This document shows positions 14,341-17,131 of a stretch of DNA of 36,159 nt, in pieces. The DNA is taken from assembly GCA_900018345.1 (NCBI GenBank), contig FCNA01000122.1:1-36159 (forward strand), in the 5' to 3' direction. Origin of the DNA: Clostridiales bacterium CHKCI006. GTDB taxonomy: Bacteria; Bacillota_I; Bacilli_A; Erysipelotrichales; Coprobacillaceae. A program made the position numbers and the translations under genes. How positions within the stretch are numbered: position 1 is the stretch's first letter; every line of letters begins with the position of its first letter. The notes beneath the pieces are model-generated. The model worked only from the letters and a program-made list of their open reading frames with translations, did not search any database and was not told the DNA's origin.

Positions 14341-14371
14341 CTTATCCAATGCTTTTTCGCACTTGTTACCA

Positions 14372-14660
14372 TGCCTCCAGCAGGAGGCACAAATGATGAT
14401 GAAAGATTTTTCTGTACAAATAAGTTGTCCTATAGTAATGTTAGTCTGGAAGCACCGGCACACTACAGAACACGATGTAACGTCTGGAGATCCAGAGCCC
14501 GAACTTTTATCAGTCGCCGCTATCCTTCATGCACAAATGATTGGTGGCTTTAAAGCCCGGATATTTATGAATACACCCACTTCATTAGGGTTCTCGCAGG
14601 GATAGCAGTCAATGCCGGTCTTTCCATCTTTTCAACCTTACTCATTACAGAAAGGAGAAA
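14372..14660 (+). ncRNA. Candidate bridge-RNA region of the IS110 element
   Basis: IS110-group elements encode a structured bridge RNA in the non-coding end 5' of the transposase. Here that region opens with a perfect hairpin TGCCTCC-AGCA-GGAGGCA (14372-14389). Further local inverted repeats follow: CTGGAGATCCAG near 14484, GGCTTTAAAGCC near 14547, and a GGATATT/AATACACC pair near 14559. No ribosome-bound ORF is convincing here. Assignment is by position and structure; the two guide loops were not resolved. Confidence 0.45.
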
Positions 14661-14663
14661 AAC

Positions 14664-16160
14664 ATGGAAACAAAAAGCAGAAAACAAGTTAAAAGGCTCA
14701 TGTCTGGCAGTTCTTACTCTTCCGAAGAGCTTAGCTCTCTGACAATGGATGACGGTACTACGGTCGTCTATTCAGTCAATGGAGATATCAAACGATCTAT
14801 TTGTGGCAGTGTTGACGTGCACAAGAAAATCCTCATGGCTGCTATCTGCATAACCGATCCTGCTTCGCTTAAGTCCACCTTTTTTGTCAGAAAGTTCACA
14901 ACGATGAATGCCGACATCCGCACGATGGCAGGCTGGTTCAAAGAACATGGTGTGCAGGATGTCTGCATGGAGTCAACCGGTAAATACTGGATCCCTGTAT
15001 TCAATATTCTGGAACAGAATGATATCAAACCCATCCTGACACATCCTAAATATGTCAAGCAGGCGAAGGGACATAAAACAGATTTCCGTGATGCTATCCA
15101 TATGGCAAGCCTGTTCCGCATGGATCTGGTGATTGCTTCTTTCATCCCGCCTGCTGAGATTCGTGATCTCCGTGAACTGTGTCGTTATCGCCTTAAGCTC
15201 ACCTATATCCGAACATCTGAAAAGAATCGTTTTCAGAATTCTATGACTATCTCTAAAGTGCGTTTGGATAGCGTCTTCACTGATCCTTTTGGCAAATCAG
15301 CATCCGCTATCATGGAATACCTCATTTCTACAGATCCTGAACAGGTCAACGATGACGATATCCTGGCACTGATCAGCCGTCGTGGGAATGTGAAGGCCTC
15401 CAACGAAGAAATTTTGGACAGCATTCATGGTTATGAATTGATTGGTGTGCAGCGCGATAAGCTTCAAATCATCAGGATGCACATTACCCAGATAGATGAA
15501 TGCATTGACATGATTGATAGTAAACTGGAGTACTACCGTCAGAAATATGCCAATATCATCAATCATCTTACAACAATGGTTGGAATCACATCAATGTCTG
15601 CACTGTATATCCTTGGTGAGATCGGCACAGATATGTCAGTATGGCGTGATGATCATTCTCTTGCGTGTTGGGCTGGACTTTCCCCTGCAAACAATGCAAG
15701 CGCAGGAAAAAAGAAATCTACCAAAGTAGGCAATGGTGGGCATTATCTTAAACCACTGCTTGTACAATGTGCGCTGGCAGCTGTAAAAAGCACAAAGAAA
15801 GACCCCTACTTTCATCATAAATATGAAACGCTGAAAAAACGTCGTGGCCATAAAAAGGCAATCATTGCCATTGCAAGGAAGATGCTTGTAGCAATCTATC
15901 ATATGATCAGGGATGATACAAATTTCCATCCGATCGACAAGGAAGAGGTCACACAAAAAACGAAAAAGACACAAGGGTTGAATTTAAAAAATGTCCTCAT
16001 TTTCTTAAAAGAACATGGCGCTGATGGAAATATGATCCGCATGGTTGAAGAACAGTGCTCCGAAAATACAGAAATAAAAGACGCAAAAGAAAAACAATCC
16101 AATTTAGCAATAACAGATGCGTCTCAACCAATACAGGAATCTGTAAACGGAATGTCCTGA
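14664..16160 (+). CDS. IS110-family transposase (DEDD, bridge-RNA-guided type)
   Basis: A 498-aa transposase with GGAG 6-7 nt upstream of the ATG. The RuvC-like DEDD domain shows Asp51 (GSVDVHKK), Glu103 (MESTGKYW), Asp140 and Asp143 (GHKTDFRDA). The C-terminal Transposase_20 domain shows MVGITSMSALYILGEIG, WAGLSPANNASAGKKKS and the GNGGHYLKPLLVQCA helix; Ser346 in NASAGKK is the likely catalytic serine. It is longer than many family members (often about 400-430 aa), with an extra hydrophilic C-terminal tail of some 70 residues. All catalytic residues are present, so it may be active. Confidence 0.93.
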   Translation: METKSRKQVKRLMSGSSYSSEELSSLTMDDGTTVVYSVNGDIKRSICGSVDVHKKILMAAICITDPASLKSTFFVRKFTTMNADIRTMAGWFKEHGVQDVCMESTGKYWIPVFNILEQNDIKPILTHPKYVKQAKGHKTDFRDAIHMASLFRMDLVIASFIPPAEIRDLRELCRYRLKLTYIRTSEKNRFQNSMTISKVRLDSVFTDPFGKSASAIMEYLISTDPEQVNDDDILALISRRGNVKASNEEILDSIHGYELIGVQRDKLQIIRMHITQIDECIDMIDSKLEYYRQKYANIINHLTTMVGITSMSALYILGEIGTDMSVWRDDHSLACWAGLSPANNASAGKKKSTKVGNGGHYLKPLLVQCALAAVKSTKKDPYFHHKYETLKKRRGHKKAIIAIARKMLVAIYHMIRDDTNFHPIDKEEVTQKTKKTQGLNLKNVLIFLKEHGADGNMIRMVEEQCSENTEIKDAKEKQSNLAITDASQPIQESVNGMS

Positions 16161-16324
16161 TCGACTTCCAACAGGGTCGCGCCCTAAATCATCATCATAG
16201 AAGATCCTGCGATGGCAACTGCTACAGCTTAAACTGGATTGCATCATTATTGTACCATACAGGACCTGATTTTAAAAGCTCCATTTTATGGGGTAGGGGC
16301 TTTATGCCCTTTTTTATCATTTTC

Positions 16325-17131
16325 TCATACATAATCTTTCATATTTCCTGAATGAAAACCATCAAGATCTAAAGTGACATATAAAAACCCTAAGCTTTTG
16401 AAATAAGGAACCACTTCTTGATAGATTTCCGGCTGCATAAAACGGGAAATTTGATCTTCCTCCAATTCTATACGCGCCAGCTGATCATGTACACGGACCC
16501 GATACTGCCTGAATCCATAGGAAGCAAGCTTTGCCTCAGCCTGTTCGACCATCCTGAGCCCTTCAGGGGTGATCGTCTGCCCGTAGGCAAAACGACTGGC
16601 CAGACAGGCAAACGAAGGCTTATTCCAGGTTGGCAGTCCCATTTCATTAGACAGCTCACGGATCTCCTGTTTCGTGAGTCCGGCTTCTTTGAGCGGACTC
16701 GCAATTCCCAGCTCGGAAATGGCACGCATACCCGGACGATAATCCTGCATATCATCGACATTGCTGCCTTCAACGACATGAGCAAAGCCCAGACCAGCCG
16801 CCGCCTCTATCAGTCTGGTAAACATCGCTTTCTTACAATGATAGCAACGATCCGAAGGGTTCTCACAGAAATGCGGAATCGTCAAGACGTCCACATCTAA
16901 AACAATCTGCCGGATCCCCTCTTTCTGACAGAATACCTTCGCCTCACATAACTCGTGGGATGGAATGGCCTGAAGATGGAGGGTGAAAGCCACCATCCTG
17001 TCCTTGAGAACCTCATGCGCCACCTTCAACAAAAAAGTCGAATCCACACCCGCTGAAAAAGCAACAGCGACCTTTTCCATCTCCTGCAGGTTCTTTTTAA
17101 GCATTTCTAATTTTTGATGTAAGTGATCCAT
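16325..17131 (-). CDS. larE: ATP-dependent sacrificial sulfur transferase LarE
   Basis: A 268-aa PP-loop protein with the ATP-binding motif SAGVDS (26-31) and Cys176 in PSFACLASRF. Cys176 has the same number as the cysteine that donates its sulfur in the Lactobacillus plantarum enzyme. A DRCYHCK motif (95-100) adds two cysteines. LarE adenylates the bis-carboxylated pyridinium made by LarB and inserts two sulfurs, giving the ligand of the nickel-pincer nucleotide used by lactate racemase. It starts 4 nt after larC2 and is the last lar gene here; the IS110 element lies immediately downstream. Length is normal, so the IS did not truncate it visibly. Confidence 0.95.
   Translation of the reverse strand: MDHLHQKLEMLKKNLQEMEKVAVAFSAGVDSTFLLKVAHEVLKDRMVAFTLHLQAIPSHELCEAKVFCQKEGIRQIVLDVDVLTIPHFCENPSDRCYHCKKAMFTRLIEAAAGLGFAHVVEGSNVDDMQDYRPGMRAISELGIASPLKEAGLTKQEIRELSNEMGLPTWNKPSFACLASRFAYGQTITPEGLRMVEQAEAKLASYGFRQYRVRVHDQLARIELEEDQISRFMQPEIYQEVVPYFKSLGFLYVTLDLDGFHSGNMKDYV

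Follow-up and report, generated by a model that had tools for sequence, protein, structure and literature searches.

The 36,159-nucleotide stretch of DNA analyzed here (the window; positions 1 to 36,159 of contig FCNA01000122.1, Clostridiales bacterium CHKCI006) carries at positions 14365..16346 a complete insertion sequence of the IS110 family, which lies, like all its features described below, on the plus strand, within the 3' part of a minus-strand larE gene. Its transposase/recombinase gene (14664..16160) codes for 498 amino acids and leaves non-coding ends of 299 nt on the left and 186 nt on the right, and a bridge RNA of ~180 nt is predicted within the left end (14447..14626). We consider it highly likely that the element is moved by an RNA-guided DEDD/serine recombinase working with this predicted left-end RNA. 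Covariation indicates that bridge RNA is the right description for the family, and it is very probably right for this element too, because a guide in the RNA covaries with the left flank both across the clade and within the subfamily to which the window element belongs. An earlier note, made from the sequence alone, had proposed a bridge RNA here; what is added to it is a reversed guide order, subterminal repeats, and the targeting of start codons by relatives.

The limits of the element follow from comparison of copies. It begins at 14365 with GTTACCATGCC, immediately 3' of a TT core, and finishes at 16346 with CTTTCATATTT. Besides the one complete copy, the genome has three left-end fragments (contigs C113, C124, and C133), and all four have the left end in common from GTTACCATGCC onward while the preceding bases vary; multi-copy relatives give the same boundary. 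The fragments (L002:1501-1808, L003:1501-1740, and L004:506-589) span 84-308 bp, and no right end was found for them. Right ends of the closest relatives terminate in TTYATACTT, after which the flanks diverge, and both ends are common to Eubacterium plexicaudatum copies at different sites. The left-end divergence point and the shared right ends of relatives thus fix the limits of the window element at 14365 and 16346 and its core as TT. The non-coding 5' region pointed out in the earlier note (14341-14663) does precede the transposase gene, but its first part, 14341-14364, is host flank.

Host DNA adjoining the left end reads CGCAC followed by the core TT (left target, 14358..14364); the TT at the right end (16345..16346) occupies the same position as in multi-copy relatives, and the right target CCTGAATGAA (16347..16356) lies inside larE. 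When the flanks are joined at the core, a plausible LarE C terminus is restored that ends ...DGFHSGSAKKHWIR, whereas the interrupted gene product ends HSGNMKDYV. At that place LarE homologs have SGS or SGG in 9 of 11 cases, with MGS in the other two (L215 and L216), so the joined form is likelier to be the original. The interrupted larE takes its final codons and its stop codon (window 16325-16351, ...NMKDYV) from the right end of the element. A terminal hairpin, GCCTCC-AGCA-GGAGGC, is evident in the left-end sequence at 14373..14388; inspection by eye showed hairpins at the corresponding position in relatives, which are uncounted.

The product of the transposase gene matches Pfam DEDD_Tnp_IS110 (E 5e-19) and Transposase_20 (E 1e-14), and NCBIfam transpos_IS110 at 200 bits (cut-off 140). 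The catalytic residues named in the earlier note, D51, E103, D140, D143, and Ser346, occupy the positions given there, do not vary in alignments of 13 and of 38 sequences, and correspond to D11, E60, D102, D105, and S241, respectively, given for IS621 in the available text of PMC11208158. An AlphaFold2 model of the protein has a mean pLDDT of 80.5, and its best PDB matches are IS621 (8wt9/8wt6; E 3e-12, TM 0.75 by target length) and ISCro4 (9t56); the predicted fold is thus like that of the IS621 bridge recombinase. The loop around S346 (344-356) falls under a pLDDT of 50, and the equivalent S241 loop of IS621 is reported in that same available text to be disordered in two of four protomers (PMC11208158). 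Residues 472-498 also fall under 50. The long C-terminal tail remarked on earlier is real, but five of the closest relatives, L084, L085, L087, L090, and L093, have proteins of equal length (489-525 amino acids, counted from the match start). Other subfamily members (L088, L089, L092, and L094) have frame breaks.

The left-end RNA is structured beyond chance. Its closing stem, P0, pairs 14447-14460 with 14613-14626 and has changes on both sides in 12 of 13 pairs. The target-loop hairpin P1, UCUGG-AGAU-CCAGA (14483..14496), is taken from the fold, and an alternative P1 (alignment A3 columns 42-45 with 70-73) was used in the covariation count. Donor stem P2 is formed by a 5' arm, GCUAUCC (14519..14525), and a 3' arm, GGAUAGC (14600..14606), with changes on both sides in 5 of 7 pairs and 98% of cells paired. 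RNAalifold recovered the long closing stem, with compensatory changes in 11 of 17 pairs; on the mixed alignment it missed P2, probably because the subclades are offset, and a hand-set structure of 27 pairs was therefore counted instead. Across 24 sequences, 84.8% of the cells of this structure pair, compared with 74.7% after shuffling (none of 500 shuffles reached the observed value) and 33-51% for slid structures, and 21 of the 27 pairs show compensatory changes on both sides. Single-sequence folding of the left end is no more than suggestive, with 6 of 200 shuffles as stable. The bridge-RNA-like size, position, and hairpin content seen in the earlier note are therefore confirmed as a structured RNA of ~180 nt upstream of the transposase gene. 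Model R1 scores the window RNA at 113.7 bits, the window sequence itself being part of the model, and the RNA is found at E <= 0.001 in 13 of the 395 genomes of the class, the genome of the window included. A promoter scan found 7 promoters where 5.7 were expected. The sequence TATAGT lies at 14431-14436, just upstream of the RNA; L056 has TATAAT, and in relatives read by eye a TATAAT-like sequence is likewise found a short distance before the RNA. Such a TATAAT-like box may be an internal promoter.

A structured segment directly upstream of a gene, with a moderately stable fold (z -1.99), could also be a 5' untranslated regulator of the transposase gene, an attenuator or riboswitch-like leader with no guide RNA. 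We regard this as very improbable, because seven bases of the RNA covary with host DNA outside the element, which a leader has no reason to do; bases of the donor guide, moreover, track the right end of the element 1.8 kb away.

The evidence for guiding comes from the insertion sites. Matching the RNA profile gave 194 loci, from which sets of 36, 80, and 111 insertions were derived by merging identical flanks and dropping loci with no recognized left end, no recognized guide, a partial RNA match, or a flank of fewer than 12 bases (70 loci failed for the 80-insertion set and 29 for the 111-insertion set, one in each for a missing guide; L093 and L147 of the window subfamily are among the failures). 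Mis-anchored rows were kept, including L018, L030, L097, and L206 in the set of 80, and L096, L097, L135, and L163, along with several rows off by one base, in the set of 111. Junctions in the largest set were fixed by the left-end sequence pattern, independent of the guide.

Downstream (3') of the first hairpin lies a seven-base guide, with the sequence AACUUUU in the window (14502..14508), that reproduces the top strand on the left side of the insertion. Of the 252 guide-flank positions in the first set of 36 distinct insertions, 226 are paired, against 195 when permuted (0/20,000 permutations), and in the 111 distinct insertions of the window element and its relatives, 633 of 777 are paired against 474.8 (0/20,000); removal of the four mis-anchored rows leaves 620 of 749 against 462.6 (0/5,000 permutations). 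Positions 3-5 are exact at 166/216 in the 72 unique guide-target pairs, compared with 86.8 permuted (0/20,000). The window subfamily by itself (14 insertions) shows the same behavior, with 36/42 exact at these positions against 16.2 permuted (0/20,000), or 27/33 against 11.6 for its 11 unique pairs (1/20,000). The place of the guide in the RNA was also located with no prior assumption about it: an exact copy of target positions 2-7 is present in the RNA of the insertion itself in 77 of 111 cases, with rows lacking the anchor motif counted as misses, and 67.3 of the 77 occurrences (ties split) fall within a single bin of 5 nt on the target loop's 3' side. Guide and flank also differ together in fragments of the window's own genome, L002 having AACACTT/CACACTT and L003 AACTTTT/CACTTTT; each retains its target guide and pairs with its own flank at 6/7. 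Several copies have a guide T opposite a target C (AATTGTT/CATCGTT, and TATTTTT/CATCTTT three times), which as U-G pairs favors a sense-strand RNA. The proposal of an IS110 bridge RNA is thus supported by guide-flank covariation at both scales, the 111 insertions and the 14 of the subfamily. Guide loops that match the flanks had been set beforehand as a test in the earlier note, and for the left target they are found at the level of clade and subfamily, but poorly at this locus.

Might the recombinase alone read the target, the likeness of guide and flank being due to shared ancestry or to left-end capture? YTCA precedes the guide-matched bases in 10 of 14 subfamily targets and resembles the right end TTCATAYTT, and the first bases of YTCA lie outside the guide match. 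Against such a protein-only account, close copies within a single genome differ in the variable bases and in the guide together (the G014 copies; L002 and L003), and permutation within classes speaks against simple ancestry. We judge this account very improbable.

The closest relatives (69-81% identity) are from Lachnospiraceae and Eubacterium. E. plexicaudatum ASF492 has six loci with five target sequences (L086 and L095 share one); L086 has seven additional bases at the left junction, and in L095 the RNA is ~724 bases farther from the gene than in L085, as if by an intervening insertion. In the tree the window subfamily forms a separate line inside the same clade, and its targets differ from those of the other relatives. 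The pattern YTCANNNNT fits 10 of its 14 targets, the core being TT in most (AT in L084); it does not fit those of the window copy, L002, L086, and L090. For the E. plexicaudatum RNA, an example of the subfamily's matched target is TTCAAGGTT. Outside the subfamily the left target starts with CAT in 79 of 97 insertions (75/93 without the four mis-anchored rows, and 86/93 if the anchor may be one base off), and in 73 of 90 the ATG on the opposite strand begins an open frame of 50 codons or more (75/94 before mis-anchored rows were dropped, with L096 and L097 as false cases; another three had too little flank). Among control ATGs from the same flanks, the figure is 874 of 3,643 (24%), and in the window subfamily none of the 14 insertions is at a start codon. 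A strict Shine-Dalgarno-like motif is present in the right-guide region of 70 of the 97 other relatives (9.8 expected from shuffling) and in 0 of 14 members of the window subfamily. C is the most frequent base at right-target positions 4-6 (20, 20, and 21 of 35), which CCTCC would give, although the natural spacing to the start codon would give it too.

Several further observations concern these relatives. Six matches to the RNA model lie in the genome of the window (G000), including matches on contigs C164, C103, C146, and C6; that on C164 (L005/L050) belongs to a start-codon-type relative with left target CATATTT. In L056, L067, and other start-codon-type relatives, the first 6 bases of the left end are TCCTCC, which is GGAGGA on the opposite strand at Shine-Dalgarno distance from the start codon beside the insertion; from these sequences, the left end of one group supplies a new Shine-Dalgarno, and the adjacent gene may remain translated. 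Twenty-one relatives are in viral contigs (IMG/VR, L163-L183), some at start codons of genes there. Three copies of one relative (L043, L049, and L053 in G015) follow one another at a spacing of exactly 3,582 bp, a pattern like that of a tandem array. A distant relative is present in two copies (L078 and L082 in G263), both with the same upstream stretch reading HHDRDLNAAINIRKL by eye, which we take to resemble the end of a TnpB protein. A truncated relative (L083 in G163) has the right-guide region UAAUUUCAG and the left flank GTATATT after a T-run, and could perhaps represent a second natural reprogramming. Phage records gave no DNA match to the element, matches in plasmid records are short and within the gene (13 records), and a protein scan of the genome contigs with the window protein as sole query confirmed no relative.

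The donor side of the RNA gives a second guide. GAUAUUU (14560..14566), 3' of the second hairpin, matches the right end CATATTT at 6/7, and by comparison, with no permutation test, it tracks the right end through three subfamily states: GAUAUUU/CATATTT in the window, UAUACUU/CATACTT in E. plexicaudatum, and UGUACUU/CGTACTT in L090. A weak candidate for the right-donor guide, UGGUGGC (14542..14548), could pair with the left end GTTACCA through five Watson-Crick and two G-U pairs. Of the complementarity to the donor junction that the earlier note proposed to look for, the left-donor guide shows three matching states, and right-donor pairing is inconsistent. The right-guide region also seemed to match the element's own left end (GTTAC), a reading that was discarded because the match is weaker in E. 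plexicaudatum. The right-target guide is placed by homology at 14475..14484 (AUGUAACGUC), a position that is Shine-Dalgarno-like in most relatives outside the subfamily and not in the window.

With the left-target guide on the 3' side of its loop, the arrangement is opposite to the IS621-like order, and we reason that an antisense RNA would not restore it; from sequence, the guide order thus seems reversed relative to IS621. If the order were misassigned, this would be an ordinary bridge RNA of IS621 type, and half of the assignment does depend on homology to start-codon-type relatives, the right-target guide being weakly supported. This we hold to be unlikely, the data placing the left-target guide 3' of the first hairpin and the left-donor guide 3' of its own.

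Several points weigh against an RNA-guided element of this kind. The window guide AACTTTT pairs with its own flank CGCACTT at only 4/7, which is the poorest fit but one among the 14 subfamily insertions (the L002 guide AACACTT would pair with the window flank at 5/7), and one or two of the variable guide positions are mismatched in several G014 copies. Support for the right guide in relatives is modest: a right-target register stands out in start-codon-type relatives only, at p 0.0007 uncorrected as one of 9 registers (own guide versus permuted), and the test included L015, L018, L159, and L162, which the right-end pattern mislocated. The 12 right targets of the window subfamily have no consensus and misfit a nearly constant right-guide region, the window right target CCTGAATG included, and right-donor pairing, read by eye, is inconsistent across subfamily members. 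Finally, an Rfam scan gave no family above threshold and a single sub-threshold U6 match.

The poor match of guide to site, together with the presence in the genome of a single complete copy alongside three left-end fragments, raises the question of whether the window copy is dead, the RNA being in use in its relatives alone. This is possible, but we doubt it: its reading frame is open, and the active-site residues, the repeats, the RNA structure, and both ends are intact. Probably the site at the 3' end of larE was an imperfect match when the window copy inserted there, or the guide was altered afterwards.

The element also has subterminal inverted repeats, a perfect 10-bp match between ATGAAAGATT on the left (14399..14408) and its complement AATCTTTCAT on the right (16333..16342). 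We compared left and right ends of the same element in 31 non-redundant elements out of 94 with both ends found, and the summed repeat score was 233, against 182.7 permuted (SD 6.6; highest of 200 permutations, 200.5). Per element the score is 7.5 versus 5.9, so that a short match in any one element says little. In 21 of the 31 elements there are perfect runs of 6-11 bp. The repeats lie 31-48 bp from the left end and, in 29/31, 3-8 bp from the right end (34 and 4 bp in the window).

Computation supports the ends, conservation and covariation of the RNA, covariation and 3' position of the left-target guide, the left-donor match, the subterminal repeats, the active-site residues, and the predicted fold; transcription, formation of a ribonucleoprotein, a circular intermediate, the chemistry, and the right-hand guides of the subfamily are steps that we infer. 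In the mechanism proposed, the left-end RNA would fold into a multi-branched structure that is closed by the long stem and contains two loops, one for the target and one for the donor. Each loop would hold, 3' of its hairpin, a guide copying the DNA to the left of the core (the left target in one and the right end of the element in the other), and the guide for the other side would be expected 5' of the loop hairpin. The recombinase would bring together the end junction of the circular element and a target, mostly YTCANNNTT with NNN chosen by the guide, and strands would be exchanged at the TT core.

On balance, we lean toward placing the element in a large Bacillota lineage with a third bridge-RNA layout, in which the RNA is upstream as in IS110, and the guide order and subterminal repeats are as in IS1111. 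The guide of most members would mimic a Shine-Dalgarno sequence on one side and carry the start-codon complement with two or three selectable bases on the other, and would therefore recognize the translation-start signal of very many genes. The window subfamily would be a natural reprogramming in which the Shine-Dalgarno mimic has been given up and the target is chosen by the left guide alone; with about three left-guide bases varied and the right side seemingly ignored, it would be an instance of natural short, relaxed targeting. Few bridge-RNA recombinases have been characterized, and published descriptions separate IS110 from IS1111 by the place of the RNA, guide order, and end repeats; a lineage mixing both layouts helps to trace how the RNA was relocated and its loops rewired. 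A guide reading translation-start signals, if correct, would explain by RNA pairing the presence of IS110-family elements at start codons, perhaps including IS900.

Among characterized systems, the available text of the IS621 reports (PMC11208160 and PMC11208158) describes several features that the window element shares: an RNA upstream of the recombinase gene with two guide-bearing loops, a left non-coding end longer than the right, DEDD and serine residues in what is predicted to be the same fold, and a core ending in T, a TT core being reported as functional for IS621. The window element differs in having left guides 3' rather than 5' of the loop hairpin, an RNA multi-branched through a long closing stem, and a protein of 498 rather than 326 amino acids, and its subterminal repeats exceed the 2-3 bp given in the available text for IS110. 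TIGR-Tas proteins (9mty and others), described in accessible parts of PMC12045711 as RNA-guided, are weaker fold matches, over fewer columns of the model and at lower TM, and belong to no insertion sequence.

IS1111 elements offer the other half of the comparison. According to the available text of PMC11187229, their seekRNAs have a guide order opposite to that of IS621 and lie downstream of the gene, with exceptions reported within IS1111, and the group is defined by subterminal inverted repeats, usually of 11-13 bp with extensions of ~7 and 3 bp. The window element resembles them (ISEc11, for example) in that the top-strand complement is reported to precede the bottom-strand match (PMC11187229), in having subterminal inverted repeats, and in a multi-loop donor region, reported for many IS1111 members in the portion of PMC11208160 available. 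It differs in its upstream RNA, its larger protein, and repeats placed 34 and 4 bp from the ends rather than ~7 and 3 bp. Placement between IS110 and IS1111 by a tree failed; the tree had no labeled IS1111 references, and the unlabeled L226 and L229, which have long downstream gaps, were distant and on long branches.

For start-codon targeting, the closest parallel is IS900 of Mycobacterium avium subsp. paratuberculosis. A search of titles and abstract openings for IS110 elements linked to Shine-Dalgarno sequences, ribosome binding sites, or start codons, which did not extend to preprints or to most subscription papers, found no guide RNA reading such signals, and none is described for IS900 in the available text of PMC8141618. 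The targeting of start signals as such is not new, since that text reports the IS900 target motif CATGNNNNNNTCTCCTT. This motif reads as a start codon and Shine-Dalgarno on the other strand, as do the sites of most relatives outside the window subfamily, whereas none of the 14 insertions of the subfamily itself is at such a site.
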